Below are positions 8,202 to 48,899 of a stretch of DNA of 64,000 nt, in pieces. The stretch is from assembly GCF_026616195.1 (NCBI RefSeq), contig NZ_JANHDH010000001.1:1984001-2048000 (forward strand), given 5' to 3'. The DNA is from Haloarchaeobius amylolyticus (GTDB lineage: Archaea; Halobacteriota; Halobacteria; Halobacteriales; Natrialbaceae). The stretch's first letter is position 1. Each line of letters starts with the position of its first letter. Under the pieces are notes generated by a model. It ran no database searches, had not been told where the DNA came from, and was given only the letters and a program-made list of their open reading frames with translations. The position numbers and the translations under genes are program-made.

Positions 8202-8202
8202 G

Positions 8203-8799: not shown

Positions 8800-8857
8800 G
8801 CCGACGGCTAGCTGTGTAGGCCCGAGATATTCCCGGTTTCCGCAGCGTCACTCGTGT

Positions 8858-8977
8858 ATGACACTGCTCGAACTGCTCGTGATCGCGCTCGTGGTCCTGG
8901 TGGTGCTCGCAATCATCGCGGCGGTCGTCGGCGAGGGCGAACTGGTGATGGAACTCGCGCTGGAGCTCATCGACTGA
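8858..8977 (+). CDS. Micro-protein with one membrane helix (39 aa)
   Basis: A 39-codon open frame starts at the ATG at 8858. Residues 4-24 form one very hydrophobic helix (LELLVIALVVLVVL...), followed by a short acidic amphipathic tail with E and L. A GATATT box about 30 bases upstream would support a leaderless mRNA. Codon choice shows the G/C third-position bias of the flanking genes. No function can be assigned; it resembles single-pass small proteins that attach to larger membrane complexes. Confidence 0.5.
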   Translation: MTLLELLVIALVVLVVLAIIAAVVGEGELVMELALELID

Positions 8978-9028
8978 GACGGCCAGACCGGTCGACGGAA
9001 CCATCCGTACGCTGTCTGACTCGGTGGA

Positions 9029-9035
9029 TTTATTA
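9029..9035 (+). promoter_or_regulatory. TATA box facing the structured region before hef
   Basis: TTTATTA is a good haloarchaeal TATA element. It lies 26-32 bases before 9061, the first base of a perfectly paired fold, and there is no credible start codon at the expected start site near 9057. Hef has a separate box at 9329-9333, so this promoter appears to serve the RNA candidate. Confidence 0.5.
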
Positions 9036-9056
9036 GGGCGCGCATACTTCAACCTG

Positions 9057-9290
9057 TCAGCCACGACGATACGCCGCTTGACGGCGTTCCGGCGACTTCG
9101 GTCGCCGGCAGTGTCGTGGTGATACGGACGACACCGCGCGGCGGACTCCCCCCAACTCTCCCCCCAACCCCCCGCCGTCTGTCGTCTCGTCGTGGCCGAC
9201 CGCGCCGTCTTCACTTTCATCGCGGTCGGCCTCCTCGTCGCCTGCAGCGACGGGTATCGACCCGGCTGGCCGGTTCCGCGACGAGGCCGA
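9057..9290 (+). ncRNA. Candidate structured RNA with a three-way junction
   Basis: No protein gene is convincing here, but the plus strand folds unusually well. CCACGAC (9061-9067) pairs with GTCGTGG (9113-9119) and encloses two perfect hairpins: ACGCCG/CGGCGT (9071-9076/9082-9087) and CCGGCGAC/GTCGCCGG (9089-9096/9101-9108), the second closed by the very stable C(TTCG)G tetraloop. Further on are an 11-bp perfect stem (9194-9204/9221-9231) and a 9-bp stem (9233-9241/9278-9286). GTGTCGT (9111-9117) can instead pair with ACGACAC (9128-9134), excluding the outer stem. A TATA box sits at the right distance upstream. I found no SRP, RNase P, tRNA or box C/D hallmarks. The 3' end is uncertain. High GC makes chance stems commoner, so this remains a candidate. 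Confidence 0.35.
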
Positions 9291-9323
9291 CACCGGGGAG
9301 CTTCACTTTCACCGTGGTCGGCG
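9210..9323 (+). repeat. Two-copy 22-base direct repeat upstream of hef
   Basis: The copies at 9210-9231 and 9302-9323 both begin TTCACTTTCA and end GGTCGGC, with only three differences in 22 bases and a 92-base period. The second copy lies directly before the hef TATA box; the first forms part of the 11-bp stem at 9194-9231. The core CACTTTCA(C/T) also occurs upstream of the PCNA gene in this window. Confidence 0.5.
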
Positions 9324-9358
9324 AAGTCTTAAACGACGGGAAGCCGAATTCTCGGGCG

Positions 9359-11866
9359 ATGGCTGCCACCGACGAGGCGTCCGTCGAGCACCCGCTGCTC
9401 GCGCCGAACTTCCTCCAGCGCCGGCTCTACCAGTTGCAACTCGCGGGCACGGCGACCGAGGACCACACCCTCGTCTGCCTGCCGACCGGGCTGGGCAAGA
9501 CGACCGTGAGCCTGCTCGTGACCGCGCGGCGACTCGACGAGGTCGGCGGGAAGTCGCTGATGCTCGCGCCGACGAAGCCCCTCGTGCAACAGCACGCGGA
9601 GTTCTACCGCGAGGCGCTGCAGATCCCGGACGACGAGGTCGTCGTGTTCACCGGCGACGTGCGCCCGGACGACCGCGCCGCGCTCTGGGAGGACGCGACC
9701 GTCGTCATGGCGACGCCGCAGGTCATCGAGAACGACCTCGTCGGTGGCAGAATCTCGCTGCGGGACGTGACACACATCACCTTCGACGAGTGCCACCGCG
9801 CGACCGGCGACTACGCCTACAACTACATCGCGGAACGCTACCACCAGGACGCCGCGGACCCCCTGGTGACCGGCATGAGCGCCTCGCCCGGTGGCGACGA
9901 GGAGGAGATACTGGAGGTGTGTGAGAACCTCGGGTTGCGCGAGGTCGAGGTGATGACCGAGGACGACGCCGACGTGGCGGAGTACACCCACGACACCGAG
10001 GTCGAGTGGAAGAAGATCCAACTTCCGGACGAGGTCCTCGAGATACGCGACGGGCTGAACGAGGTCATCGCCGACCGCCTCTCGAAGCTCAAGGAGATCG
10101 GCGTGACGAAGGCCACCTCGCCCGACCTCTCGGAGACCCAGATAAACAAGATATCGGCGCAGTTGCGCCAGATGATGGACAACGACCAGTCGGCGGGCTT
10201 CAAGGGTATGAGCCTGCTCGCGGAGATTCGCAAGCTCCGGACCGCGGTCACCTACGTCGAGACCCAGAGCGTCGAGGCGACCCGCCGGTACTTCGAGCGC
10301 CAGAAGAACGCCGCCCGCGCCTCCGGGGCGTCGAAGGCGAGCCAGCGCATGGTCTCGGAGCCGAAGGTCCGCGAGGCCATCCGGAAGGCCGAGTCCTTCG
10401 ACGACATCCACCCGAAGTACCGCGAGGCGCGCATCCTGCTCGCCCAGACGCTGGGCATCGAGGACGGCGAGCGCGTCATCGTCTTCACCGAATCGAGAGA
10501 CACAGCCGAGGCCCTCACCGAGTTCCTCTCGAACCACTTCGAGACGCGGCGGTTCGTCGGGCAGGGCGACAAGGAGGGCTCGGACGGGATGACCCAGAAA
10601 CAGCAACAGGAGGTCTTAGAGCAGTTCAAGGCCGGCGAGTTCGAGGTGCTGGTCTCGACCTCGGTCGCCGAGGAGGGCCTGGACGTGCCCGAGGTCGACC
10701 TCGTGCTGTTCTACGAGCCGGTCCCGACGGCCATCCGGTCCATCCAGCGCAAGGGCCGGACCGGCCGCCAGGACGAGGGGCGCGTGGTCGTGCTGATGGC
10801 CGAGGACACGCGCGACGAGGCGTACTTCTGGATCTCGCGGCGCAAGGAGAAGCAGATGGAGAACGAGCTCCGCAAGCTCAAGGGCGTCGCCGCGGACATG
10901 GAGGAACAGCTCGACGACTCCCAGCAGAGCCTCGACGCGTTCGCGGGCGGTGACGGGGGCGACGGAAGCGACGAGGCGGCGGCCGAAAGCGCCGCGAGCG
11001 CCGACGGCGGGACCAGCGCGGACACCCAGCCGGGGCTGCAGGAGTTCGGCGCGAGCGACAACGAGGCGGAGGGAGACGGCGAAGACGGCGGCGAGAAAGC
11101 CGACGACGCGGCCGAGACCGCGGCCCAGACCACCGATGCCGAACTCGCCGCGGCCGAACCCGACGAGCCAGACGACGGCGTCGTCGCGGCCGCGGAACCG
11201 CAGGAGGAGGACACGGTCGAGGTCGTCATCGACCAGCGCGAGATGGACTCCTCGATTCCACGGGACCTCTCGACCCGCGAGGACGTGACCACTCGCCTCG
11301 AAACGCTCGCGGTGGGCGACTACGTCCTCTCGGACCGCGTCGCCGTCGAGCGCAAGTCCGTCTCGGACTTCCTCGACACCCTCACCGGCAGCGACCGCTC
11401 CGTCTTCGAGCAGGTCCGGGACATGGCCGGGCACTACGCCCGGCCCATCCTCGTCATCGAGGGCGACGAGAGCCTGCTCGGCTCGCGGGACATCCACCCC
11501 AACGCCATCCGGGGCGCGCTCGCCTCGCTGGCGGTCGACTTCGGCGTGAGCGTCCTGCGGACCGAGGGCGAGGCAGACACCCGGGACCTGCTCGCGGTCA
11601 TCGCGACCAGAGAGCAAGAGAAGAGCGGCCGCGAGGTGTCGGTCCACGGCGAGAAGTCGAAGAAGACCCTGAGCGAACAGCAGGAGTACGTCGTCTCCGC
11701 CATCGCGGACATCGGGCCGGTGACCGCACGGTCGCTGCTGGCTCACTTCGGCACCGTCGAGGAAGTGATGTGCGCGAACGAGGACGACCTCCTGGAGGTC
11801 GACGGCGTCGGCCAGGTGACCGCCGAGCGCATCCGGGAGGTCATCGGGAGCCAGTACGAGCCGTGA
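9359..11866 (+). CDS. hef: Hef: archaeal XPF/FANCM-family helicase-nuclease
   Basis: Hef processes stalled forks and branched DNA. The 835-residue protein has an N-terminal SF2 helicase (Walker A LPTGLGKTT at 41-49; DECHRATG box; SASPGG motif III; QRKGRTGRQ motif VI). A long acidic, low-complexity linker rich in D, E, A and G follows (about 520-620). The C-terminal XPF nuclease has VAVERKSVSDFL (the ERKxxxD active site). The end carries tandem helix-hairpin-helix motifs (IADIGPVTARSLL, LLEVDGVGQVTAERI). The ATG at 9359 is chosen because TTAAA at 9329-9333 fits a leaderless start and the helicase fold begins directly after it. The acidic linker is typical of halophilic Hef. Confidence 0.96.
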   Translation: MAATDEASVEHPLLAPNFLQRRLYQLQLAGTATEDHTLVCLPTGLGKTTVSLLVTARRLDEVGGKSLMLAPTKPLVQQHAEFYREALQIPDDEVVVFTGDVRPDDRAALWEDATVVMATPQVIENDLVGGRISLRDVTHITFDECHRATGDYAYNYIAERYHQDAADPLVTGMSASPGGDEEEILEVCENLGLREVEVMTEDDADVAEYTHDTEVEWKKIQLPDEVLEIRDGLNEVIADRLSKLKEIGVTKATSPDLSETQINKISAQLRQMMDNDQSAGFKGMSLLAEIRKLRTAVTYVETQSVEATRRYFERQKNAARASGASKASQRMVSEPKVREAIRKAESFDDIHPKYREARILLAQTLGIEDGERVIVFTESRDTAEALTEFLSNHFETRRFVGQGDKEGSDGMTQKQQQEVLEQFKAGEFEVLVSTSVAEEGLDVPEVDLVLFYEPVPTAIRSIQRKGRTGRQDEGRVVVLMAEDTRDEAYFWISRRKEKQMENELRKLKGVAADMEEQLDDSQQSLDAFAGGDGGDGSDEAAAESAASADGGTSADTQPGLQEFGASDNEAEGDGEDGGEKADDAAETAAQTTDAELAAAEPDEPDDGVVAAAEPQEEDTVEVVIDQREMDSSIPRDLSTREDVTTRLETLAVGDYVLSDRVAVERKSVSDFLDTLTGSDRSVFEQVRDMAGHYARPILVIEGDESLLGSRDIHPNAIRGALASLAVDFGVSVLRTEGEADTRDLLAVIATREQEKSGREVSVHGEKSKKTLSEQQEYVVSAIADIGPVTARSLLAHFGTVEEVMCANEDDLLEVDGVGQVTAERIREVIGSQYEP

Positions 11867-12057
11867 GCGAGGCCGTTCGCGCCGCCGTCGGGAAGACCTT
11901 CCCGGGGCTGGTCGTCACGCTCCTCGTCCTCGTGGTCGGGCAGGTGTTCGACCTGCACTGGAGCGTGGGCTACGGCGCGGCACTGGTGGCGTTCACCCTC
12001 TGGATGCTCTGGTTCGTCGTGACGTTCGTGCGCTGGTGGGAGGAAGGCGAGACGTAG
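11863..12057 (+). CDS. Small two-helix membrane protein overlapping hef
   Basis: A 64-residue protein starts at a GTG that overlaps the hef stop (GTGA). Two hydrophobic helices (GLVVTLLVLVVGQVF and AALVAFTLWMLWFVVTFV) are followed by a short acidic tail. The start was chosen from the GTGA overlap, the usual coupled arrangement in this genome. No function is visible. The link to hef is positional only. Confidence 0.65.
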   Translation: MSEAVRAAVGKTFPGLVVTLLVLVVGQVFDLHWSVGYGAALVAFTLWMLWFVVTFVRWWEEGET

Positions 12058-12058
12058 A

Positions 12059-12715
12059 TTACCGGCGGAGGGTACTGAGCGCCTCGGCGGCCTCCTTCAC
12101 CGCGGCGAGGCACTCGCGGGCGCGGGCGGGGTCGTCCGTGTTCGCGGCGGCGTCGCTGAAGTAGCGGATGGTCTCGGCGATGCTGGCCTCGGCCTCGCCG
12201 AACTCGCCGGCGAGGGAGGCACCCGCGGCGGAGCGGTCGACCTGCCGGGGCTCGGCGCCTGTCGCCCCGGCACCGGCACCGACCGAACCGGCCTGCCGGC
12301 CGGGGGTGGCGCCGGTCGCGACCGGCTGCTGCGCGCTCGACTGGTCGGCGGTCGCAGGGTCGGCTACCGTCTCACCGTCGGCCTCGGAGACGTTTGCTTG
12401 CTGTGCGTCCTGTGCCTGCCCTGCACGCTGGGCCTGCTGGTCTGCGGCCTGCTGTTGCTGTGCTTGCTGCTGTGCCTGCTGTTGCTGGGCCTGCTGGCGC
12501 TGGGCCTCCTGGGCCGCGTTCTGGCAGCTCGGGCAGAACTCCTGGCCCTGGTAGCGGAAGATGGGGTCGCCGCAGGTGTCGCAGTGCTGGTTCGTCATCG
12601 TCGCACCCTGCAGGAGGAGTTCGCTCATCCGCTGTGTCGACTTGCGGTCCTCCTCGTCCTTGGCGAACTTCTCGCGCAACTTCTCTCGCTCTGCCTCCTT
12701 GTCGAACTCGCTCAT
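12059..12715 (-). CDS. Sjogren/scleroderma autoantigen 1 (p27)-like zinc-ribbon protein
   Basis: A 218-residue protein begins with a charged helix (MSEFDKEAEREKLREKFAKD). It then has a p27-type zinc ribbon (MSELLLQGATMTNQHCDTCG ... FCPSC; cysteines near residues 45-65). A striking linker of Q and A (about 65-105) leads to a second low-complexity A/G/T stretch. The C-terminal 50 residues form a helical region (EASIAETIRYFSDAAANT). The zinc ribbon matches the archaeal relatives of autoantigen p27; the molecular role is unknown. It is convergent with the hef operon and divergent from mdh, with a 257-base gap upstream. Confidence 0.85.
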   Translation of the reverse strand: MSEFDKEAEREKLREKFAKDEEDRKSTQRMSELLLQGATMTNQHCDTCGDPIFRYQGQEFCPSCQNAAQEAQRQQAQQQQAQQQAQQQQAADQQAQRAGQAQDAQQANVSEADGETVADPATADQSSAQQPVATGATPGRQAGSVGAGAGATGAEPRQVDRSAAGASLAGEFGEAEASIAETIRYFSDAAANTDDPARARECLAAVKEAAEALSTLRR

Positions 12716-12828
12716 GTCGGGAGGGAGGACCGTGAGAGAGGAAAGTCCTGCGGACCGTTCAGACGGGTACTATCGCGTGCAGGACGTCCCCGGCTCGCGC
12801 CCCGGGAGCATCGGAGTCCAACCCGGTG

Positions 12829-12842
12829 ACCGGATGTCCGGT
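12829..12842. promoter_or_regulatory. Perfect palindrome between divergent p27-like gene and mdh
   Basis: ACCGGA-TG-TCCGGT is a 6-bp inverted repeat with a two-base spacer, about 114 bases upstream of the p27-like start and 131 upstream of mdh. It is operator-like but far from both start sites, and GC-rich palindromes are common here, so it is only weakly supported. Confidence 0.25.
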
Positions 12843-12972
12843 TTCGTCTCGTCTCGGTCGGCTGGACTGCCCGAACGTCCCGGACAGCGCGGCGTGGAAC
12901 CGGTATCGGCGCGGGCGTAGCACTGCCGACTTCGACACGTTTAACCGGGAATCGAGAGCAGTTTCGAGTGTT

Positions 12973-13887
12973 ATGGCGAAAGTTAGCGTAGTCGGCGCGG
13001 CCGGCACCGTCGGGGCCGCCGCAGGCTACAACCTCGCGCTTCGTGACGTGGTCGACGAACTCGTCTTCGTGGACATCCCGGACAAGGAGGACGAGACGGT
13101 GGGCCAGGCCGCGGACGCCAACCACGGCATCGCGTACGACTCCAACACGACCGTCCGCCAGGGCACCTACGCGGACACGGCGGGCTCGGACGTCGTCGTC
13201 ATCACGGCCGGCATCCCGCGCCAGCCCGGCCAGACCCGCATCGACCTCGCGGGCGACAACGCGCCCATCATGGAGGACATCGGCTCCTCGCTCGCCGAGC
13301 ACAACGACGACTTCATCACGGTGACGACCTCGAACCCGGTCGACCTGCTCAACCGCCACCTCTACGAGGCCGGCGACCGCGACCGGAACAAGGTCATCGG
13401 CTTCGGTGGCCGACTCGACTCCGCGCGCTTCCGCTACGTGCTCTCCGAGCGCTTCGACACGCAGGTCCAGAACGTCGAGGCGACCATCCTGGGCGAGCAC
13501 GGCGACGCGCAGGTCCCGGTCTTCTCGAAGGTCCGCGTCGACGGCCGCGACCCCGAGTTCTCCGACGACGAGAAGGAGGAGATCCTCGGCGACCTGAAGG
13601 AGTCCGCGATGAACGTCATCGAGCGCAAGGGCGCGACCGAGTGGGGCCCGGCGACGGGCGTCGCCCACATGGTCGAGGCCATCCTGCGCGACACCGGCGA
13701 GGTCCTGCCGGCGTCGGTCAAGCTACAGGGCGAGTTCGGGCACGACGACGTCGGCCTGGGCGTCCCGGTCAAGCTCGGCAGCGACGGTGTCGAGGAGATC
13801 GTCGAGTGGGACCTCTCCCAGCTGGAGCGTGACCAGCTCGGTGAGGCCGCCGAGAAGCTCTCCGACCAGTACGAGAAGATCTCGTAA
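12973..13887 (+). CDS. mdh: Malate dehydrogenase, LDH-like halophilic type
   Basis: The enzyme interconverts malate and oxaloacetate with NAD. The 304-residue protein has the nucleotide-binding loop [17 protein letters not shown] at the N-terminus, the active-loop region [16 protein letters not shown], the TSNPVDLL block and the catalytic histidine in [14 protein letters not shown]. Acidic residues on the surface are typical of the tetrameric haloarchaeal enzyme. The ATG at 12973 matches the family length, and TTTAACC at 12940-12946 supports a leaderless mRNA. Longer in-frame starts read through promoter DNA and are rejected. Confidence 0.97.
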
Positions 13888-13897
13888 CGACGCGGTC

Positions 13898-14032
13898 TCA
13901 GTTCTCGCGTTCGCCGGGCGACCGCCGCTCGGCGATACTGCCGTTCGCACGCGTCTCGATAGCGTCCGGAACCTGTTCACCGACCAGTTCCGCCCACTCT
14001 CGGATGCGGGCCGTGCGGTTGTCTCCCGACAT
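13898..14032 (-). CDS. Putative 44-residue small protein
   Basis: An ATG-initiated frame of 44 codons (starts MSGDNRTARIREWAELVGEQ) lies between mdh and the Brp/Blh gene. The first half could form one amphipathic helix. A TTATG box at about 14064-14068 and an inverted repeat directly upstream of the ATG look like a small promoter with an operator. It is convergent with mdh, 10 bases apart. No family is recognised and the frame is short, so the call rests mainly on the promoter layout. Confidence 0.45.
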   Translation of the reverse strand: MSGDNRTARIREWAELVGEQVPDAIETRANGSIAERRSPGEREN

Positions 14033-14033
14033 G

Positions 14034-14048
14034 GTATCTACGAGATAC
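14034..14048. promoter_or_regulatory. Inverted repeat at the start of the 44-aa gene
   Basis: GTATCT-ACG-AGATAC is a perfect 6-bp inverted repeat that begins two bases before the ATG at 14032 on the minus strand and lies between the likely TATA box and the start codon. This is where haloarchaeal repressors commonly bind. Confidence 0.4.
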
Positions 14049-14101
14049 GTCAACATGGATGTGCATAACTTTTTTCTCGCTGCCGCGACACGTTCGCCGG
14101 G

Positions 14102-15118
14102 TCACCAGACGCCCTGCTGCCGGTCGAGCACCGAGACGACGACGACGTGGGGCAGCGTGAGCACGGCCAGGAGGACGAGGTAGACCGCGAGGGCCCCGTC
14201 GAGGCCGGCGGGGGTCCGCGGGACCGCGATGGCGATACCGGCCATGATGGCGATGGCGGCCGCGGTCGTCGGGAGCGCGTCGCGGGCGAAGCGACGGAAC
14301 GCGCCGACGAGGTCGTCCCGGGCGAGCGAGGCGACCGCGGTCTCGTCGAGGCCGACGACCCGGACGACGTGGCGCAGCGAGTGCCAGAGACAGAAGTACA
14401 GCCCGATGGCGAGGATGGGTGGCACGAGCGCGAAGAAGCCGGTGAGGAGCGCGATCTCGACGCCGTCTCGCTTCCAGGTGGTGGTGTCGGGCGAGCGCGC
14501 GCCGAGTACGAGCGAGGCGACGACGATGGCGGCGAAGCCGACGGCGACCCCGAGCCTGGCGTCGGCCGAGAACGCCCACGCGACGCTACTGGCGTCGGTC
14601 CCGAACAGTTCGACCGTGATGGCGACGACGCGCTGGTAGGCGTCCGGGAAGGCGACCAGCGGGACGAGCATCGGGAGCGCCCCGCGGACCGCGACCGTCA
14701 GGAGGCGGTGGAGCGGCGTGGTCGGGTACGCGCCCTCCGAGAGAACGTGCAGGCAGTAGAGGTCGCCCTGCCCCCAGTGGGCCCACGTCAGGAGGATGAA
14801 GAACGTGAACGCGGCGACCGGCGCGACGAACCAGGCGAGCAGGTAGAGACCGCCGAGGACGGCGTAGAGGGCGGAGACGGCGACGACGGACCGGCGGACC
14901 GAGATTCCGGTACCCAGCCGCGCCAGCACGAGGTGGTCGACCGCACCGTGTGGGAGGCCGAGGACGAGGACGCTCACCAGCAGCGGGAGGTACTCGGCCC
15001 ACGGCGGGACCGAGAGCCCGAGCGCGAACGGGACGGCCGCGAGCCCGAGCAGGAGCCACTCCGGGCGCAGGAGCCGGTCGACCGTCCGTCTGACCGGCTG
15101 GGGGACCGCTACAGCCAT
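14102..15118 (-). CDS. blh: Brp/Blh-type beta-carotene 15,15'-dioxygenase (retinal synthesis)
   Basis: This membrane enzyme is known to cleave beta-carotene into two retinals, the chromophore of bacteriorhodopsin. The 338-residue protein is strongly hydrophobic with about eight to nine helices. It has histidines typical of the Brp/Blh family in GLPHGAVDH (H57 and H62), LTWAHWGQGD (H114) and CLWHSLRHVVRV, likely ligands of the catalytic iron. The ATG at 15118 lies ten bases inside the end of the lycopene cyclase gene, so the two are translated together. The opsin and its activator lie just upstream on the same strand, which fixes its role. Brp versus Blh cannot be separated with certainty. Confidence 0.92.
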   Translation of the reverse strand: MAVAVPQPVRRTVDRLLRPEWLLLGLAAVPFALGLSVPPWAEYLPLLVSVLVLGLPHGAVDHLVLARLGTGISVRRSVVAVSALYAVLGGLYLLAWFVAPVAAFTFFILLTWAHWGQGDLYCLHVLSEGAYPTTPLHRLLTVAVRGALPMLVPLVAFPDAYQRVVAITVELFGTDASSVAWAFSADARLGVAVGFAAIVVASLVLGARSPDTTTWKRDGVEIALLTGFFALVPPILAIGLYFCLWHSLRHVVRVVGLDETAVASLARDDLVGAFRRFARDALPTTAAAIAIMAGIAIAVPRTPAGLDGALAVYLVLLAVLTLPHVVVVSVLDRQQGVW

Positions 15119-15834
15119 CGGTCGACCACCCAGTGATAGAGGACGATGCCCTGGACGACGAGCAGGGTCGTGACGAGGAAGAACAGCATCTCCTCGACAG
15201 GCAGGCCGAAGAGGCCGAGCCCGGTCGTGTGGTCGGGCGAGATGGTCCAGATGCCGAGCCGGATGGCGTACCAGTCGACCGCCCAGAGGTACGCCACGGG
15301 GAAGGCGACGACCGGCGCGAGGTCGCGCCGCGCCGCCCAGAGGTAGTGCCCGCCGACGGCCCACTGCAGGGCCAGGACGGGGGCGGCCCACGCGAGGATG
15401 GCGCCGAGGTAGTACGTCGACGGGACGGTCAGGGCGGCCGCGCCGAGTGCGGCGAGGACCAGCCAGCCGACGGTCCCCACGAGGCGTGCCCGTCGCGGCA
15501 GCGGTTCCTCGGGGTGGACCGGCGGCCAGCGGAGGGTGTAGAACCACAGGGCGGCGAGGACCGGCTGGAAGGCCATGAACAGGTACTCCTCGAGCGGGGC
15601 GAGGCCGATGGTGAGCACGACCGCGCCCTGGCCGTACCACCAGACGCCCTGCCCGATGAGGTAGTTGTCCCACGGTGTCGTGTATGCGAGTGCGACGACC
15701 ACCATGAGGACGGTGGGGACCAGCCCCTCGCGGGGGAGGGGCAGTCCCCGCCGCCACGACGCGACCGAGAGGCCGAAGATAGGTGCCACTACGAACAGCA
15801 GCAGGAAGGCCGCGTAGGTCAGGGTGGTCGTCAT
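15109..15834 (-). CDS. crtY: Lycopene cyclase, fused CrtYc-CrtYd membrane type
   Basis: The enzyme closes the rings of lycopene to give beta-carotene, the precursor of retinal. The 241-residue protein has about seven helices in two repeated halves. Each half holds family motifs: TTPWDNYL with LEEYLFM in the first, and VDWYAIRLGIW with VEEMLFF in the second. Fusion of the two half-domains is usual in haloarchaea. The stop codon overlaps the Brp/Blh gene by ten bases. The gene starts 132 bases beyond the opsin stop on the same strand, and its upstream DNA holds a weak partial likeness to the opsin activator site. Confidence 0.93.
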   Translation of the reverse strand: MTTTLTYAAFLLLFVVAPIFGLSVASWRRGLPLPREGLVPTVLMVVVALAYTTPWDNYLIGQGVWWYGQGAVVLTIGLAPLEEYLFMAFQPVLAALWFYTLRWPPVHPEEPLPRRARLVGTVGWLVLAALGAAALTVPSTYYLGAILAWAAPVLALQWAVGGHYLWAARRDLAPVVAFPVAYLWAVDWYAIRLGIWTISPDHTTGLGLFGLPVEEMLFFLVTTLLVVQGIVLYHWVVDRWL

Positions 15835-15889
15835 CGTCTGGATATAGGTGACGTTGGTAGTTGGCGTAGACGGTGCGAGCCGGTTGCCG

Positions 15890-15966
15890 TACTGTCGGAC
15901 GTACCTCGTGACGAGACTCGATCCCCTTCGGTGTCGAAATCCGTCATGGGCGTCCGTCCGACAGTA
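15890..15966. repeat. 12-bp inverted repeat between opsin and lycopene cyclase genes
   Basis: TACTGTCGGACG at 15890-15901 and its exact complement CGTCCGACAGTA at 15955-15966 enclose 53 bases. One arm begins at the base after the opsin stop codon on the minus strand, so opsin mRNA could end in, or be followed by, a long stem-loop. This may stabilise the abundant opsin message or limit read-through into crtY. Confidence 0.4.
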
Positions 15967-16686
15967 TCAGTCGCCTGCCGCGACTGCACCGGTCGTGACC
16001 TGGTCGAGGACGGTGTGGCTGCGCAGCAGCAGGAAGCCGAAGCCGACCTTGGCGCTCAGGTCGAGCACCATGAAGATGGCCGTCTCCGGATAGATACCGA
16101 CGAGCCCGAGGCCCTCGGTCCCGATGAGCCAGACGATCGGATACGCCGTCCAGAGCACCAGGGTCAGGTTCCGTAATGTCCCGAAGAGCTGGGCCACGTC
16201 TCCCGACTGTTCGGCCGCGGCGGCCGAGAGCTTCCCGACGAGGAAGTACAGGAGGACGAGGAAGAACCCACAGCTGATGCCCCACCAGGCGAGCCGGTAG
16301 GCCATCCCTTCGGTCGCCAGTGCGCCGCCCAGTCCGGTGACGATCATCGCCGCGTCGAGGCCGACGAGCGTGAAGATCGTGTTCCGGCTCGCGCCAGCGA
16401 GCAGCGCGAGGTCGAGCAACAGCAACGGTGTGGTGAACAGCCAGTCAGCGTACCGTGCCCAGTAGATGGGTTCCTCGTGATTGGGGATATTGATGACCCC
16501 GAACCCGGATGCCATCGAGAAGTACGACGTCGCGGCGATGGCCGCGATGAATATCGTCACGATGTAGTAGGTCTGTTTCTGTTCGTCCTGTTCGTTCCAT
16601 CCCATCGCGACGAACGCGAGGGTGCCAAGAGTCATACCGGCTGTGCCGAGCCACAGCCAGAGCGACTCGCTTTCTGGTACTGCCAT
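15967..16686 (-). CDS. bop: Bacteriorhodopsin-type light-driven proton pump
   Basis: This 239-residue seven-helix opsin uses retinal to pump protons outward. Helix C reads [19 protein letters not shown], so both proton-transfer carboxylates are kept: D81 (D85 in Halobacterium bacteriorhodopsin) and D92 (D96). The release group E191/E201, D209 and the Schiff-base lysine K213 in DLSAKVGFG are present. D96-type aspartate rules out a halorhodopsin or sensory rhodopsin. The leucine at the position that separates green from blue absorbers is a green-type residue. A Bat-type activator site lies 43-57 bases upstream of the ATG. The gene lies between bat and crtY/blh. Confidence 0.96.
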
Positions 16687-41195: not shown

Positions 41196-42587
41196 ATGTC
41201 ACAGTCGCTCCCGCGACCACCGGACGCCGGCGTCATCAACGCCGTCCGGTTCGGCACCGACACGTTCCGTTTCATCGAGGCGATGCAGTCGCGGTTCCCG
41301 GACATCGTCGGCATCCCGATCCCGGGCCGTGCCCCGCTCGTGCAGGTCACGAACCCCGACCTCATCCACGACGCCCTCTCGCGCCCCGAGGACTTCCCGC
41401 GCGTCCCGGTGAGTGGGCCAGCCGCCCTCATCGCCGAACAGGGCCTCGTCCAAAGCGAGGGCCAGCTCTGGCGCCAGCAGCGCAACGTCATGGGCTCGGC
41501 CTTCGCGGGCGACCAGGTCCGGGCGTACGCCGACACGGTCGGCGAGCGCGTCGAGGCACTCTGCGGCGAGTGGCGCGACCGGCTCGCGGGCACCACGACC
41601 GGCGCGGGGCGGGCGACCGCCGCCGACGGCGCGTCGAGCTTCGAGACGAACCTCCACTTCGACATGACCGCGCTGACGGTCCGGGTCGCCTCCGAGATAC
41701 TCCTCGGGGAGGACATCGGGCTCGACCGCGCCGAGCAGTTCTCCGAGTGGATGCAGGTCGCCGGCGACGAGTTCGAGTTCGGCATCGAGGCGGTCCTGCC
41801 CGAGTGGGTCCCGACGCGCACCTCGCCCCGGTTCCGCGAGGCGGCTTCGGGCATCCGCGAGCTCTCCGAGGAACTCATCGAGCGCCGCCGCGAGGCCCTC
41901 GCGGCCGGCGAGACCGAGGGGCCGCCGGACATGCTCTCGATGCTCATCCGGGCCGAGTCCAACCCCGAGGTCGACTTCCCCGAGAACCAGATCCGCGACG
42001 AGGTCGCCACCTTCCTCATCGCCGGCCACGAGACGACCGCGCTCAGCCTCACCTACGCCCAGAGCCTCCTCGCCTGGCACCCCGAGGTCCGCGAGCGCGT
42101 CCGCGCGGAGGCCGAAGCCGTCATCGGCGACGAGACGCCGACGCACGACCACGTCGACGACCTCGCGTACACGGGCCGGGTGTTCACCGAGGCGCTGCGG
42201 CTCTACCCCGCCGCCTGGGCCGTCTTCCGGCAGGCGAAGGGCGACGTGCAACTGGGCGACTACGTCGTCCCCGACGGTTCGGCCGTCGTCATGCCGCAGT
42301 ACGCGGTCCACCGGGACGGGCGGTACTTCGAGAACCCACACGAGTTCGACCCGGACCGCTGGCTCGACCGGAAACCCGACACGGTCCCGGCGTACTTCCC
42401 GTTCTCCAGCGGCCCCCACGCCTGCATCGGCCGGCAGTTCTCGCTCACCGGGGCGCGGCTGGTCCTGGCCCGCATCGCGCAGGAGTTCGACGTCGACGTC
42501 CCCGAAGACGGCCTCGACGACCTCCGGGCGACGCCGACGCTCCGCCCGGGGAACGGGGTCGACGCGACCGTCAGCGTGGTGGAGTAG
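41196..42587 (+). CDS. Cytochrome P450
   Basis: A 463-residue haem monooxygenase has the I-helix oxygen-binding FLIAGHETTALSLTYA (about 268-283), the K-helix ExxR in FTEALRLYPAAW and the haem-cysteine loop FPFSSGPHACIGRQFSLTGARL (about 405-426). There is no membrane anchor, so it is a soluble, bacterial-type P450. A redox partner is not adjacent; either ferredoxin in the window could serve. The substrate is unknown. Confidence 0.95.
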   Translation: MSQSLPRPPDAGVINAVRFGTDTFRFIEAMQSRFPDIVGIPIPGRAPLVQVTNPDLIHDALSRPEDFPRVPVSGPAALIAEQGLVQSEGQLWRQQRNVMGSAFAGDQVRAYADTVGERVEALCGEWRDRLAGTTTGAGRATAADGASSFETNLHFDMTALTVRVASEILLGEDIGLDRAEQFSEWMQVAGDEFEFGIEAVLPEWVPTRTSPRFREAASGIRELSEELIERRREALAAGETEGPPDMLSMLIRAESNPEVDFPENQIRDEVATFLIAGHETTALSLTYAQSLLAWHPEVRERVRAEAEAVIGDETPTHDHVDDLAYTGRVFTEALRLYPAAWAVFRQAKGDVQLGDYVVPDGSAVVMPQYAVHRDGRYFENPHEFDPDRWLDRKPDTVPAYFPFSSGPHACIGRQFSLTGARLVLARIAQEFDVDVPEDGLDDLRATPTLRPGNGVDATVSVVE

Positions 42588-42724
42588 CCGCGTGTCGACA
42601 CCAGACCTCGCCGGGGCCGACGGGTCCTGCCCCGAATATATTAGGTCATGAGTTCCCGGGACCGAATCGTTGAGGCGGTACTGCCTACAAGGAGTCTCAC
42701 AGAGTACGGATACGAACCGCAGCT

Positions 42725-45076
42725 ATGCCCGAACCCCTCCCTGCTCTCGCACCGATAGACGTGCTTGTCGTGGGCGACTCGCTGGTTCCCGACGACCTCG
42801 TCGCGGCCCTCCAGGCCGAGCAGCCAGCCGTCAAGGTCCGGACCGCGACAGCCGTCGCAGGCGCCCGGGAACAGGTCACCTCGAACCCGCCGGAGATGGT
42901 CCTCCTGGGCGTCGGCAGTGTCGACGGTGCGTGGCGCTCGCTGGCCGGCCGCCTCCGCGACCTCGACGTCCCCTTCGTCCTCGTGGACCCGGCCGGCGAC
43001 CTCTCGCCGGCGACGGCTGCCGACGCGGGCGCCGCCGACTACCTCGACCGACTCGACGGCGGCCGGCTCCAGCTGGCCGCGACGCGCCTCCTGAAGCTCG
43101 CAGAGCGCCGGCCCGCCGACGACCACCGCGACGTCCCGCTGTCGGTCGGACTCGCCGGCCTCGACAGCGTCGACGACCTGGTCTACCTGTTCGACACCGA
43201 CGGGAGCCTCCGCTGGTGGAACGAACGGCTCGAAGCCGAGGCGCCCTACGACGGGGCGGCGCTGCAGGGGATGCGCCCCGACGCCTTCTTCGAGGGCGAC
43301 GACCGCGACCGGGTGGCCGACGCGTTCGCCCGGGCGGTCGACGGCGAGCGCGTGAAGGTCGAGGCGGCGTTCGTCCTCGGGGAGGGCCGAACCCGACCGT
43401 ACGAGTTCACGGCGACGCGTCTCGACTACCCGGGCAGCACCCGGTCCTACGTCTGCGGTATCGGCCGCGACATCGCCGAGCGGACCCGGACCGTCGAGGA
43501 GCTCGAACTCCTCCGGCAGACGATCAGTATCGCCGTCACCGCCGACACCTTCGAGGACGCCCTGTCGCGGGTCCTCGCGGCCGTCTGCTCGCGGGCCGAG
43601 CCCGACTACGCCGAGGCGTGGGTGCCCGGAGACGACGGGTTGCGCTGCTCTACCACCCACACGACCGCGGCGCTCACGGGTGACCTCGCGTCGGCGTTCG
43701 TCACGAAGACCGAGCAGATGCGTTTCGGGTACGAGGAGGGGCTGCCGGGTCGGGTCTGGGCGACAGCCGAACCGGAGTGGCTCGCCGACCTGACCCGGGC
43801 CGGCAGGGAGACGTTCGTCCGGCAGGACGTCGTCGCCCGGACCGGTCTGCGGTCCGCCGTCGGGGTCCCCATCGTCGCGGCCGGTGAGGTCGTCGCCGTC
43901 CTGACGTTCTTCCTGTCCCGGCCGACGGGGCGGGACACGCGGGTCATCGACCTCATCTCGACCATCGCGGCGGAGCTGGGGACGGTGCTGGTCCGCCAGC
44001 GGACCGCGGACTCGCTCTCGCACGAACAGGACCTCCAGCAGCGTATCTTCCGGACGAGCCCGGTCGGCATCGCGGTCACCGACGCGCAGGGCGACATCGT
44101 CCGGACCAACGAGCGCCTTGAGGAGATCCTCGATATCCCCGCCGCGGAGATCACCAACCGGACCTACTGGGCGAACGAGTGGGAGATCGAGGACATGGAC
44201 GGCAACCCCATCTCGATGGCCGAGCTCCCCGTCGGCACGGTGTTGACCACCGGCGAGCCCGTCTACGGCTTCGAACACGGCGTCGTCACGGGTGACGGCG
44301 ACCGGGCGTGGGTGCGCGTGAACGCCACCCCGCTGCTCGACGACGATGGGTCGGTGGAGTACGTCGTCACGACTGTCGAGGACATCACCAGGCAGCGACT
44401 GAACGACCGCCAGCTACAGCGCCAGCGCGAGCAGCTCTCGGTGGTCGGTCGGGTCCTCAGACACGACCTCCGCACCAACAGCAGCCTGGTGCTCGGCTAC
44501 ACCGAGTTGCTGGAGCAGGGCGACGCGTCGACGGCGGAGGCGACCGAGAACATCCACGCCGCGGTCTCGAACCTGCTCTCGACCGCCGAGAAGACCCGCC
44601 TCGTCCTCGACCACTTCGACTCCGGCGAGCGCGTACCGACGCCCGTCGGGCGGTTCCTCGAGCACTGCCGGGACACCCTGCAGCGCCGGCTCCCGGAGAG
44701 TAGTGTCGAACTCCCGACCGGGGACGCTCCCGGGTCCCGGATCGAGGCGACGAAGGGCCTCCGGCTCGCGGTCATCGAACTCCTCGAGAACGCGGTGCGC
44801 TACGCCGACGGCCCCGAGGTCGCCGTCACGGGAACCGGCGAGGACGACGGCCGGGTCGTCATCCGCATCCGCGACGACGGCCCCGGCATCCCCGAGAGCG
44901 AGCTCGCGGTCCTCGACGCCGGCGTCGAGATGCCCCTCCAGCACACCAGCGGGGTCGGCCTCTGGATCGCCCGGTGGATGGTCGACACCCACGGTGGCTC
45001 GCTGACCGTCGACTCCGGCGACGAGGGGACGGTCTGCCGGGTCGAACTGCCCGTGGTCGCCGACGACGGGTCGTAG
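42725..45076 (+). CDS. Sensor histidine kinase with PAS and GAF domains
   Basis: This is a 783-residue soluble histidine kinase. The N-terminus (1-125) is a receiver-like fold that has lost clear phosphorylation residues. A PAS domain (about 145-258), a GAF domain (about 260-435) and a second PAS (about 440-560) follow. The kinase core has H580 in VLRHDLRTNSS, the N-box LLENAVRYADG, the G1 box DDGPGIP and the G2 box GVGLWIARW. No transmembrane segment is seen, so it senses a cytoplasmic signal. AATATATTA at 42635-42643 may be its TATA box, giving a leader of about 60 bases. It follows the P450 gene by 137 bases. Confidence 0.92.
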   Translation: MPEPLPALAPIDVLVVGDSLVPDDLVAALQAEQPAVKVRTATAVAGAREQVTSNPPEMVLLGVGSVDGAWRSLAGRLRDLDVPFVLVDPAGDLSPATAADAGAADYLDRLDGGRLQLAATRLLKLAERRPADDHRDVPLSVGLAGLDSVDDLVYLFDTDGSLRWWNERLEAEAPYDGAALQGMRPDAFFEGDDRDRVADAFARAVDGERVKVEAAFVLGEGRTRPYEFTATRLDYPGSTRSYVCGIGRDIAERTRTVEELELLRQTISIAVTADTFEDALSRVLAAVCSRAEPDYAEAWVPGDDGLRCSTTHTTAALTGDLASAFVTKTEQMRFGYEEGLPGRVWATAEPEWLADLTRAGRETFVRQDVVARTGLRSAVGVPIVAAGEVVAVLTFFLSRPTGRDTRVIDLISTIAAELGTVLVRQRTADSLSHEQDLQQRIFRTSPVGIAVTDAQGDIVRTNERLEEILDIPAAEITNRTYWANEWEIEDMDGNPISMAELPVGTVLTTGEPVYGFEHGVVTGDGDRAWVRVNATPLLDDDGSVEYVVTTVEDITRQRLNDRQLQRQREQLSVVGRVLRHDLRTNSSLVLGYTELLEQGDASTAEATENIHAAVSNLLSTAEKTRLVLDHFDSGERVPTPVGRFLEHCRDTLQRRLPESSVELPTGDAPGSRIEATKGLRLAVIELLENAVRYADGPEVAVTGTGEDDGRVVIRIRDDGPGIPESELAVLDAGVEMPLQHTSGVGLWIARWMVDTHGGSLTVDSGDEGTVCRVELPVVADDGS

Positions 45077-45168
45077 AGAGACACCGGGCGACCGGGCGAT
45101 TCTGTCCTGCGGCGGAACACCGTTCCGCCCGGTGCTGGCGTCGGTTCCGCGGTGGAATATTCAGCCAG

Positions 45169-46560
45169 ATGATTGATGTGGGTCTGCCGACTCCAGAGCG
45201 TATGCCGAAACTTCTCGACGAGTTCTCCGGGTACGATTTCGAGGAGCTGATGGTCGACGTCTTCCGGAAGCTCGGCTACGAGAACCCGCGCGTCCACAAA
45301 CAGGGGGCCGACGAGGGGCGCGACATCGTGATGGAAGAACGGGTCGACGGCCAGACACGCGCGGTCGTCGTCGAGTGTAAACACCGCGAGACGGTCAGCC
45401 GACCGGTCGTCCAGAAACTGCACAGCGCGGTGACGACCTACGACTACGACGGACCGAAACGGGGGATGGTCGTCACCTCCGGCCGGTTCACACAGCCGGC
45501 GCGGGAGTACGCACGGAAGGTCGAGCAGAACGGGACGGGGCCGGGCATCCAGCTCATCGACGGGAAGAAACTGCGGGAGATCGCGGACCGGATCGGCCTC
45601 GACCTGTACAACGGCCGCATCGAGATCCTCTGTGACCAGACGCTCCAGCCGTACGAGCCGACGGCCGGGCTGGACAGACCCCTGCTGAGCGCGTTCGAAC
45701 CCATCGAGAACCTGCCGCGGTCGCAGGTCGAGGCGAGCAGCCGCACTGCCGAGTTCGTGCCGATGCTCCGCATCGTGGCGTCGGTACAGGCGACGTTCGA
45801 GACGTCCGTCGGCGTCATCCACCGGGTGAACGAGACCGACCAGTTCGTCGTCAGGGCCGACCGACACGGCCCGACGGTCCCGGCCCGGGCGTTCCAGCGC
45901 CTCGTCTCGGAACACGTCGGCGAGGCCATCCAGTTCGACGAGTCGACGTTCGAACGCGACTTCGACACGGTCGAGGTGGGCCGGTTCGAGCGAACCGAGA
46001 CGGAGTACAACGACTGGCTCGTCGACCGCGTCCGGGACGCGCACACGACCACGGTCCACTACACCGGCGGGAACAACGTCGACTACTCGAAGGAGTGCAG
46101 ACCGAAGCAGAGCGACGTCCAGATACGCTCCGTGACACCGGTGTACCTGCCACAGGTCACCCAGGTCGTCTCGCTCGGCGAATACGACCACCCGGTGGAG
46201 TACGCGGCCGCCGGTGCCGCCCGGGAGACCATCACGAGTCCGGCACGCTGTGTCCACTGCGGCGAGGACGCCGGGGGCGAGACCTACACCCACTGCGCGA
46301 ACTGCGGGTCGATCAACTGCACCAGCCACACGAAGACCGAACGGCTCGAAGGGACCCCCATCTGCACCGGGTGTGCCGTCACCGAATCGTTCGTGTGGTC
46401 GACGAAGTACTTCTACGACGAGGAGAACCTGGAGACGTTCGAGACGGCGTACGAGGCGATGCCTGTCTACCGGAAGCCGATGGAGAACCCGCCACTCGTC
46501 GCCGGCGTCGTCGTCGCGCTCCTCACCGCACTCCTCGCTGCCGGTTTCGTCTTCATCTGA
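45169..46560 (+). CDS. Membrane-anchored Mrr-type nuclease with zinc-ribbon domain
   Basis: The protein has 463 residues from the ATG at 45169; 45202 is an alternative start that suits the GAATATTC box at 45156 better. Residues 12-125 form an Mrr-type restriction-endonuclease domain with the PD-(D/E)xK residues D52 (EGRDIVME), E69 and K71 (VVECKHR), and Q82. The middle (about 150-350) is unassigned. Seven cysteines at 361-402 (CVHC, CANC, CTGC pairs) form a double zinc ribbon, and residues 441-463 are one membrane helix. Mrr nucleases usually cut modified DNA; anchoring in the membrane is unusual. A defence role is inference only. Confidence 0.8.
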   Translation: MIDVGLPTPERMPKLLDEFSGYDFEELMVDVFRKLGYENPRVHKQGADEGRDIVMEERVDGQTRAVVVECKHRETVSRPVVQKLHSAVTTYDYDGPKRGMVVTSGRFTQPAREYARKVEQNGTGPGIQLIDGKKLREIADRIGLDLYNGRIEILCDQTLQPYEPTAGLDRPLLSAFEPIENLPRSQVEASSRTAEFVPMLRIVASVQATFETSVGVIHRVNETDQFVVRADRHGPTVPARAFQRLVSEHVGEAIQFDESTFERDFDTVEVGRFERTETEYNDWLVDRVRDAHTTTVHYTGGNNVDYSKECRPKQSDVQIRSVTPVYLPQVTQVVSLGEYDHPVEYAAAGAARETITSPARCVHCGEDAGGETYTHCANCGSINCTSHTKTERLEGTPICTGCAVTESFVWSTKYFYDEENLETFETAYEAMPVYRKPMENPPLVAGVVVALLTALLAAGFVFI

Positions 46561-46579
46561 CCGCGGTGGTTCCGCCCGC

Positions 46580-47308
46580 TTACCGGACGAAGTTCTCCGT
46601 CACGACCTGCCCCGTCAGTGCACCGAGCGTCGTCTCCACCTCGTAGTCCGGCGCCTCCAGCGAGACGGGCGAGTCCGCGGTGACCCCGCTGAAGTGGACG
46701 GTCATCGCGTAGGAGCCGTCGTCCGCGACCAGTGCGGCCTCGAGCGGTTCGACCCCCTCGTCGGTCTGCAGCCAGAGCTTGACCATCTCGCCGGCGTGGG
46801 ACGGGTCGGTCCGTCCCTGGACCTCGAACTCCTTCTTCGCCTTCGACCCGACCACCGGGTAGCCCCGCTCGACCCACTCGTAGAACCCCTCGTCGATGAC
46901 GTAGACGTTCGTGTAGCCCGCCTTCTGGAGCTCCGACGCCCGGAGCGACGACAGGTGGTGCGGACAGCCGCAGTACGCAACGACCAGGGCGTCCTTCGAG
47001 ACACCCTCGACGGGTTCGGCCTCGATGGGGTTCTGGACCGGGCTGCTGATTGCCCCCTCGATGTGGCCCTGGTCGTACGCCGAACTCCCGCGTGAGTCCA
47101 CGAACGTCGCCTCGTCGTTCTTGAACCACTGGTAGGTGTCCTCAATGGGGGCCAGTGCGACCTGTTCACCCTCGACAGAGAGGGTCTCGTAGCCCTCGTC
47201 GGAGGTGCCACCACTCTGCGTGTCGCCGGACCCGGTGAGGCCGCCGATGCAGCCCGCCAGGGCCGTCATCGAGAGGCCGACACCGGAGAGGAACGCCCGT
47301 CGTTTCAT
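46580..47308 (-). CDS. Rhodanese-domain surface lipoprotein
   Basis: The 242-residue lipoprotein has MKRRAFLSGVGLSMTALAGC as signal and lipobox (C20). A rhodanese domain (about 45-150) shows FVDSRGSSAYDQGHIEGAI and the active-site loop VAYCGCPHHLSS, where the first cysteine is at the catalytic position. The C-terminal 90 residues form a beta-rich domain (KLWLQTDEGVEPLEAALVADDGSYAMTVHFSGV) of unknown role. A TATTTTGG box at about 47331-47338 supports the ATG at 47308. Sulfur transfer or thiol handling outside the cell is possible. The gene is convergent with the Mrr-type nuclease. Confidence 0.85.
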   Translation of the reverse strand: MKRRAFLSGVGLSMTALAGCIGGLTGSGDTQSGGTSDEGYETLSVEGEQVALAPIEDTYQWFKNDEATFVDSRGSSAYDQGHIEGAISSPVQNPIEAEPVEGVSKDALVVAYCGCPHHLSSLRASELQKAGYTNVYVIDEGFYEWVERGYPVVGSKAKKEFEVQGRTDPSHAGEMVKLWLQTDEGVEPLEAALVADDGSYAMTVHFSGVTADSPVSLEAPDYEVETTLGALTGQVVTENFVR

Positions 47309-47431
47309 GTGCGAGGTGCTATGGGGTGAACCAAAATAGGGGTGTTGGTAACGGGTGAACCCCCTTCGTTTCGACTGGAGAACGCGCGACAGCGCAACTG
47401 CTCGCGTCCAGATGAAACGTCGAGAGGAAGT

Positions 47432-47503
47432 AGTTCCACCAGGATTCGAACCTGGGTCGTTGCCCCCAGAAGGCAACAGGATTGGCCACTACCCCATGGA
47501 ACT
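47432..47503 (-). tRNA. tRNA-Gln (anticodon CUG)
   Basis: The 72-base minus-strand sequence folds as a full cloverleaf. The acceptor stem is AGTTCCA/TGGAACT, the anticodon stem TTGCC/GGCAA holds the loop TTCTGGG with anticodon CTG, and the T arm is CCAGG-TTCGAAT-CCTGG. CCA is not encoded and there is no intron. It decodes CAG, the dominant glutamine codon in this GC-rich genome. Confidence 0.96.
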
Positions 47504-47658: not shown

Positions 47659-48294
47659 TCAGGCGACCCGGCCCTGCTCCAGCAGTTCCCGGATCCGCCG
47701 GAGTTCGGTGAGCACGTCGGCTGAGTCGGCGTCTTCCGCGGCCTGTACCGGGGGAGACGCGGCCACGCTCGCGGCCTCGGTCGCCTCTGGCTCGCGGCCC
47801 CGGACCTTCGCGAGGACCTGCTCTTTGATGGCTTCGAAGTCGCTGACGCCGTCGATGGTGAGTTCGGCGCCGGTCTGGCCGCCGAAGCCGGCGGTGTGGA
47901 TCTGGACCGTGCCCGCGTCGAGGCGGCGCTGGACGGGTCCCTGGACCGAGTCGACGTTGGTGATGCGGTTGTAGGGGACGGTGGTCCGCTGCTGGAAGAA
48001 GACGCCCCGGCGGTACTCGAGTTCGTCCTCGGTGAGGCGGTAGGCGGCGCTCCGGGTGAACGCGGGAATCCACCACGTGACGAAGGCGACCGGGAGGAGC
48101 ACCGCGGCGGCGCCGACGGCGACGGCCCAGGGCTCGACCTCGAAGAGGATGCCACTCAGTGCGAGTCCGCCGGCGACGGCCAGGAGGATGGCGACGACGA
48201 TGGCCTCGAGTGCGTAGTAGTAGACGGTGAGCCGCTCAGGTTCGAACCACTCGTTCTGGGGTCTCATGGCTGCAGAGACGCGGGCCGTCGTCAT
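47659..48294 (-). CDS. Bacterial-type PH-domain membrane protein
   Basis: A 211-residue protein (202 if it starts at the ATG at 48267, MRPQNEWFEPERL) has two membrane helices near residues 30-75. A bPH2 domain follows, with YRLTEDELEYRRGVFFQQRTTVPYNRITNVDSVQGPVQRRLDAGTVQIHT and a sheet ending in ISDF-like VSDFEAI. The C-terminal 50 residues are A/E-rich and end in a leucine-rich helix (VLTELRRIRELLEQG). YdbS/YdbT-like proteins of this fold are membrane proteins of unclear role. The next minus gene is the tRNA. Confidence 0.82.
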   Translation of the reverse strand: MTTARVSAAMRPQNEWFEPERLTVYYYALEAIVVAILLAVAGGLALSGILFEVEPWAVAVGAAAVLLPVAFVTWWIPAFTRSAAYRLTEDELEYRRGVFFQQRTTVPYNRITNVDSVQGPVQRRLDAGTVQIHTAGFGGQTGAELTIDGVSDFEAIKEQVLAKVRGREPEATEAASVAASPPVQAAEDADSADVLTELRRIRELLEQGRVA

Positions 48295-48362: not shown

Positions 48363-48899
48363 CTACGCCGAGTCCGGGCGGTTCGTGACGACCTTCGCGT
48401 GCATCGTGCTCGCGTAGCCGACGGCCAGGGCGGTGTCGACACCGCGCATCTCGGCGGCGGTGCTCTTCAGGATGGTGTAGGAGACCCGGCCGAGCGTGTC
48501 GCGGTCGCGGAACCAGACGACGGCCACGTTCGTCCGCGGCGTGGCGACGAAGGCGTCGTCGGCGAGGTCGAGGAGGTCGGGGTTAGCGTCCTCGCGGGCC
48601 CGGTCCAGCTCCTCGCCGAAGCGGCCGATGGCGGTCGCGATGGACTCGTAGCGTTCGACGGCGGAGTCGAGGACGTGGACGTAGTCGCCGTCGACGCGTT
48701 CGAACCGGGTCGATTCGGGCTCGGGCGCCGAGACCTGGGTCCAGCCGTCCTCGGTGAGGTCGGCCAGCGCGAGCAGCGCCACGTCCTGGTACCCGTCCAC
48801 GAAGCCGCCCTCTTCGGAGTCAGACCGGACGGTGAACGCACCGAGACAGCCGGCCAGGAGGGCTGTCCCGGTCGCTGCGAGCATCGCACGTCGTTTCAT
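48363..48899 (-). CDS. Haloarchaeal lipoprotein of unknown function
   Basis: The 178-residue lipoprotein has the signal MKRRAMLAATGTALLAGC (lipobox cysteine C18). The mature part is mixed alpha/beta, with FVDGYQDVALLALADLTEDGWTQV and NVAVVWFRDRDTLGRVSY. TTAATACC at about 48920-48927 is its TATA box on the minus strand. No family is recognised. Confidence 0.75.
   Translation of the reverse strand: MKRRAMLAATGTALLAGCLGAFTVRSDSEEGGFVDGYQDVALLALADLTEDGWTQVSAPEPESTRFERVDGDYVHVLDSAVERYESIATAIGRFGEELDRAREDANPDLLDLADDAFVATPRTNVAVVWFRDRDTLGRVSYTILKSTAAEMRGVDTALAVGYASTMHAKVVTNRPDSA

Follow-up and report, generated by a model that had tools for sequence, protein, structure and literature searches.

A predicted tail-anchored Mrr-type nuclease of haloarchaea, apparently carried mainly by plasmids

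The classical Mrr protein places its nuclease domain behind an N-terminal DNA-binding domain, Mrr_N, and Zorya systems combine membrane-bound ZorAB with an Mrr-like nuclease. In the sections of the source on which we draw, the Mrr of H. volcanii reduces transformation by GATC-methylated plasmids (PMC6471742). Here we describe a gene in the window (the whole 64,000-nucleotide stretch of Haloarchaeobius amylolyticus DNA that was analysed), whose product carries an Mrr-type nuclease, a middle domain, a zinc module and a C-terminal hydrophobic helix on one chain. Our open-access literature search found no study of this nuclease-zinc-tail architecture, and archaeal tail-anchored proteins as a topic likewise yielded no paper; the available portions of six papers on the classical Mrr of Haloferax, archaeal restriction-modification (RM) surveys, haloarchaeal plasmid defence genes and McrBC-type systems do not describe it (PMC6471742, PMC5867850, PMC10609329, PMC10818511, PMC7159879, PMC11090510). 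Judged from sequence comparison, the Mrr-membrane nuclease is widespread, mobile and conserved, and it is apparently unstudied. We favour, tentatively and at somewhat less than an even chance, the reading that it is a tail-anchored, cytoplasm-facing Mrr_cat endonuclease which would cut incoming foreign DNA and would have spread mainly by plasmids.

Gene, domain order and membrane tail

The open reading frame at 45169-46560 on the forward strand is real and coding, open throughout and translated into 463 amino acids. The sequence-only reading had taken all 463 residues as the protein; the frame holds, whereas the start is probably the ATG at 45202, giving 452 amino acids, since the alignments of most relatives begin at query residues 4-15, mostly 11-15, and M12 of the query is the position of most aligned relatives' own start codons. 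By eye, the TATA-like element in Table 1 suits a short-leader start at 45202 better than one at 45169; a promoter and terminator scan, whose coverage excludes archaeal promoters, gave no signal. Also by eye, a perfect 7-base inverted repeat (GCGGAAC-ACC-GTTCCGC) lies at 45112-45128, between the stop of the histidine kinase gene and the nuclease gene, a possible operator or terminator.

Table 1. Positions of the nuclease gene, its parts and nearby features within the window
Feature	Position	Strand	Basis or remark
Segment of ~4.0 kb (histidine kinase gene and nuclease gene)	42572..46596		Missing between P450 and rhodanese-like genes in sister species G002
TATA-like GAATATTC, possible archaeal promoter element	45155..45162	+	By eye; putative
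Probable coding sequence, 452 aa	45202..46560	+	ATG 45169 adds 11 residues mostly missing in relatives
Mrr_cat PD-(D/E)xK nuclease domain, residues 16-138	45214..45582	+	Pfam
Active-site codons D52 (45322-45324), E69 (45373-45375), K71 (45379-45381), Q82 (45412-45414)	45322..45414	+	Alignment
Middle domain, residues ~151-360, long beta-hairpins and helices	45619..46248	+	AlphaFold2
Eight-ligand zinc module C361 C364 C376 C379 C384 H387 C399 C402	46249..46374	+	FYVE-like spacing
C-terminal hydrophobic helix (tail anchor), residues ~441-463	46489..46557	+	Alignment

The nuclease domain matches Pfam Mrr_cat with E=1.4e-26 and 93 bits against a cut-off of 21, and the whole genome holds no second Mrr_cat match. 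Profile score and motifs (D, ExK, Q) are thus those of a PD-(D/E)xK nuclease of the Mrr_cat family. Conservation was read from an alignment of 92 full-length rows, 83 of them distinct, drawn from the window and the fetched loci; alignment A3 had misplaced row L026, which includes the nuclease part but no zinc part, row L023 starts late and some rows stop a few residues short, and A5 and A6 carry the corrected coordinates. D52 is kept in 92/92 rows and E69, K71 and Q82 each in 91/92, so the intact active site claimed earlier stands. The one row with all three changed is L021, the same gene as L142. This gene (L142:9028-10515, forward strand) is full-length and keeps the active-site D, the zinc ligands and the tail, with E replaced by A and both K and Q replaced by E; it is likely a natural dead nuclease. 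Over 150 non-independent pairs at 75-95% identity, pooled dN/dS rose from 0.054 in the nuclease to 0.116 in the middle domain, 0.127 in the zinc part and 0.294 in the tail; the nuclease, having the lowest value, is the most constrained part. These comparisons support the view that the protein is under purifying selection and conserved well outside this genome. In the whole-protein model, for which 45 close relatives served as input, pLDDT was mostly 30-50 across the first 90 residues; this poor modelling leaves the pocket without structural confirmation and was counted against the favoured reading.

The middle and C-terminal parts, modelled separately with AlphaFold2, reached a mean pLDDT of 83 and stood at ~90 across most of residues 151-350. 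For the middle domain, neither Foldseek nor VIA-align retrieved a convincing PDB match; the best Z of 6.5, obtained with the whole model, was to ribosomal protein chains over 66-77 residues, and it was only 3.2 with the C-terminal part modelled separately. The domain is possibly a sensor with a new fold, of which a missing PDB match is no proof. The zinc part had been described as a double zinc ribbon with seven cysteines. The cysteines stand, and an eighth ligand, H387, together with the spacing CxxC-x11-CxxC-x4-CxxH-x11-CxxC argues against a double ribbon. This pattern is present in 91/92 rows, and its first gap is x11 in 74 of these 91. FYVE-type zinc fingers have an eight-ligand cross-brace spacing, which the module matches apart from the variable first gap. 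FYVE fingers were also among the top matches in a profile search of PDB sequences, though weakly (EEA1, E=0.0054); direct comparison with FYVE gave a weak Pfam E of 0.84 and, by VIA-align, Z 3.1 and rmsd 3.0 over 59 aligned residues.

The C-terminal hydrophobic helix is found in 92/92 rows, with 0-6 residues beyond it, and none of the 92 rows has a hydrophobic N-terminal stretch. A single C-terminal helix, a short remainder and an absent signal peptide are the sequence features of a tail-anchored protein, a topology that is predicted to leave the nuclease on the cytoplasmic side. The proposed fusion of Mrr-type nuclease, zinc module and C-terminal helix is borne out.

Genomic setting and spread among haloarchaea

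The window copy belongs to the main contig and has a PAS/GAF histidine kinase gene (by Pfam) on one side and a rhodanese-like gene (by eye) on the other; thus no methyltransferase is adjacent, as the sequence-only reading had it. In sister species G002, the gap between the P450 and rhodanese-like genes is ~110 bp, and a comparison of this stretch showed neither the histidine kinase nor the nuclease gene. Around the ~4.0-kb insertion there are no clear direct repeats, the longest common word being 9 bases, and a search for tRNA-like patterns was unproductive. A tRNA-Gln (CTG) gene at 47430-47503 lies less than 1 kb from the nuclease gene. Past it, a bPH-like gene (47659-48294) and a lipoprotein-like gene (48363-48899) are unmatched at the same place in G002, so the far side of the tRNA is likewise variable. 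Within the same genus, G004 has a relative on a 121-kb contig.

Of the sampled haloarchaeal genomes, 193/391 have the C-terminal module, broken copies included. Seventy-one plasmid records cover at least 80% of the protein, and every one of the 40 listed is haloarchaeal. By our own criteria, 61 of the 75 genome-contig loci are intact and full-length; the remaining 14 are interrupted, incomplete or truncated at a contig end. Pairs from different genera that are at least 97% identical number 28 among the 2145 pairs of 66 genus-labelled loci, four of them at 100%, which points to recent horizontal transfer. A phage collection of 50,697 records yielded one partial match and viral contigs yielded zero; no NCBIfam family is assigned, and PHROGs gave weak matches to the nuclease part only. 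The best reading of these sequence data is that the nuclease gene is patchy and mobile, and carried mainly by plasmids.

Neighbours were compared at 63 haloarchaeal loci with long flanks, the genes being called by a custom-made acidic-protein picker, adopted because frame-shadow ORFs had spoilt the first neighbour clustering; the neighbour counts depend on this picker. Both adjacent genes point in the opposite direction at 30 of the 63 loci, so the nuclease gene looks monocistronic. The search for co-conserved neighbours turned up plasmid backbone families (DUF6166, DUF6735, DUF7567, DUF7568, a marginal ArdC-like family and others), at least two of them shared at 36/63 loci, but no partner gene conserved beside every locus. 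The haloarchaeal copies are single and stand in plasmid DNA close to ParA, Orc1/Cdc6 and ArdC-like genes, and several carrier plasmids are typed MPF_T. One carrier, pJ7-1, has BREX-5 and further defence-like genes elsewhere on the plasmid.

This setting raises the possibility of a plasmid housekeeping nuclease, processing DNA at the membrane in replication, partition or conjugation without any part in defence. The plasmid records, the backbone families, the ParA and Cdc6 genes near other loci and the MPF_T types all fit such a role. Against it, backbone families are missing at 26/63 loci, the window copy is chromosomal, the broken, incomplete or contig-end-cut loci make up 14/75, and the methanogen relatives described below sit in defence neighbourhoods. 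We consider housekeeping rather unlikely.

The 26 backbone-less loci were scanned for defence genes, with 150 of their 152 listed neighbours covered and no control set. PADLOC at E<=1e-10 found nine families among the 150, the commonest having five members, and Pfam assigned many of the genes to regulators, along with seven ParA-type ATPases, six nucleotidyltransferases and three Cdc6. These few PADLOC matches among 150 neighbours of 26 loci, read without a control, give no backing to known defence islands as the haloarchaeal setting, and a classical defence-island setting is disfavoured by them and by the many regulator, ParA and Cdc6 genes. Being largely plasmid-borne in haloarchaea, and having few known defence genes around it in the part scanned, the nuclease may serve the plasmid and not the cell.

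Methanogen relatives and possible roles

Outside Halobacteria, the profile of the C-terminal part was found in 8/237 genomes of one class and 14/232 of another in the same phylum, the hosts being called methanogens from their gene content. Relatives at ~30% identity have an unchanged domain order. Nine loci (L134-L138, L143-L145 and L155) show the same part order or fragments of it, with L137 split between frames and L144 cut by a contig end. Pfam confirmed Mrr_cat in L134, L135, L136, L138 and L145; L138 has extra TPR repeats, and the A5 rows of L134, L135, L136 and L138 end, or nearly end, in a hydrophobic segment. Another 12 loci gave a partial profile match only and appear to form a second family of longer proteins, ~540-566 aa. 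In the four of them that were read (L146, L149, L151 and L152), the chain opens with a zinc ribbon and also includes a zinc array and a portion of the middle domain. L151, the only one tested with Pfam, has Mrr_cat and lacks the membrane helix while keeping middle and zinc parts; a membrane anchor is thus not shared by every member of the wider group.

HMM-confirmed defence neighbours occur at three of the nine loci of the same architecture. L134 lies between HsdM, a type I methylase, and an HsdS fragment; at L135 the gene follows McrB and McrC in the same orientation, starting ~55 bp behind them, and BREX PglZ and BrxL are close by; and L138 adjoins the Cas10 and Csm5 genes of a type III CRISPR system. 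By eye, L136 and L137 have HEPN or nucleotidyltransferase-like genes close by, no RM, BREX or CRISPR genes were seen near L143, L145 and L155, and the neighbourhood of L144 is visible on one side only. The L135 stretch at 8065-16325 (reverse strand) is an operon-like run of a UvrD-like helicase, McrC, a McrB-like protein and the Mrr-membrane protein; at its start, the McrB-like protein corresponds to the N-terminal part of the PDC-S02 proteins of PADLOC, in which an Mrr domain makes up the remaining half. Beside Cas10 and Csm5, L138:5664-6448 has repeated LFLWNPLCN reading frames resembling a CRISPR array. The defence role suggested by the sequence-only reading is thus supported by methanogen relatives adjoining RM, BREX/McrBC and CRISPR genes; counted against it are the mere 3/9 loci and the few known defence neighbours in the scanned haloarchaeal part.

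We propose the following for the cutting of incoming DNA. The C-terminal helix would fix the protein in the cell membrane and leave the nuclease on the cytoplasmic side, the middle domain and zinc module may recognise a substrate or partner, and the nuclease would cut virus or rival plasmid DNA arriving at or near the membrane. A more specific form, which we regard as unlikely though not negligibly so, is a plasmid-borne membrane gatekeeper: the tail-anchored nuclease and its sensor would destroy rival plasmid or virus DNA on entry, and methanogens would keep the same architecture in defence islands. A suicide effector, in which the membrane or zinc part would sense infection and free the nuclease onto the cell's own DNA, appears very unlikely. 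In its favour, one membrane protein carries everything, a possible sensor domain included, broken copies exist, and the L142 gene lost the active-site E, K and Q and kept the rest; 61/75 copies are nonetheless intact, and a universally conserved adjacent partner is lacking.

The protein had also been described as a type IV-like Mrr system. A classical modification-dependent type IV restriction enzyme, with the membrane helix incidental, would agree with the Mrr_cat domain, the absence of an adjacent methyltransferase, the methanogen relative directly behind McrBC and the effect of H. volcanii Mrr on GATC-methylated plasmids, as given in part of PMC6471742. The Mrr_cat assignment holds, but Mrr_N gave no Pfam match up to E=1, and there is no upstream room for it because Mrr_cat begins at residue 16; no recognised modified-base reader domain was found in the window protein. 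Dam avoidance is missing too. Across the 391 genomes, 60 have both the nuclease gene and Dam, 133 the nuclease gene only, 35 Dam only and 163 neither, and Dam has no match in the window genome; Dam-family genes are thus commoner, not rarer, in carriers (60/193 versus 35/198; odds ratio 2.1, P=0.002, uncorrected for kinship). A nuclease cutting Dam-methylated DNA would be expected in genomes that lack Dam; carriers do not show this, so GATC m6A is disfavoured as the target, although modification dependence in general is not decided by it. Nor is CTAG-m4C a likely target, since, in the part of the survey that we use, the CTAG m4C methylase is near-universal in Halobacteria, at 163/181 (PMC10609329). 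We give the type IV explanation a low probability.

If incoming DNA is indeed cut at the membrane, archaea would have in this protein an entry barrier encoded by one gene. This would bear on which plasmids and viruses are able to coexist in one cell and could explain some failed transformations of haloarchaea, the module being plasmid-mobile and present in about half of the sampled haloarchaeal genomes.

Comparison with known systems

With Mrr of E. coli and of H. volcanii (HVO_0682), the window protein has in common Mrr_cat with an intact active site and no methyltransferase partner; it differs in its N-terminal nuclease and in the added middle domain, zinc module and membrane tail. Of the PADLOC mREase_IV profile it matches positions 171-289 of 317 only. 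Type II and III restriction-modification systems differ in having a cognate methyltransferase beside the nuclease, which is missing at the window locus. The zinc-array methanogen Mrr proteins (L149, L151) share Mrr_cat (L151), zinc motifs and some of the middle domain, and differ by an N-terminal zinc ribbon, several zinc units and the missing membrane helix (L151).

Zorya is similar in concept through its coupling of a nuclease to the membrane, and ZorD1 shares the Mrr-like nuclease domain (E=1.3e-6). In contrast to Zorya, the window protein has no helicase and carries anchor and nuclease on one chain, and no ZorAB-like genes were recognised by eye beside its gene. The PDC-S02 candidate defence genes of PADLOC are alike in the Mrr_cat part, with a best E of 1.4e-14. 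Only the C-terminal half of their profiles is matched; the N-terminal half, missing in the window protein, resembles the start of the McrB-like neighbour at L135.
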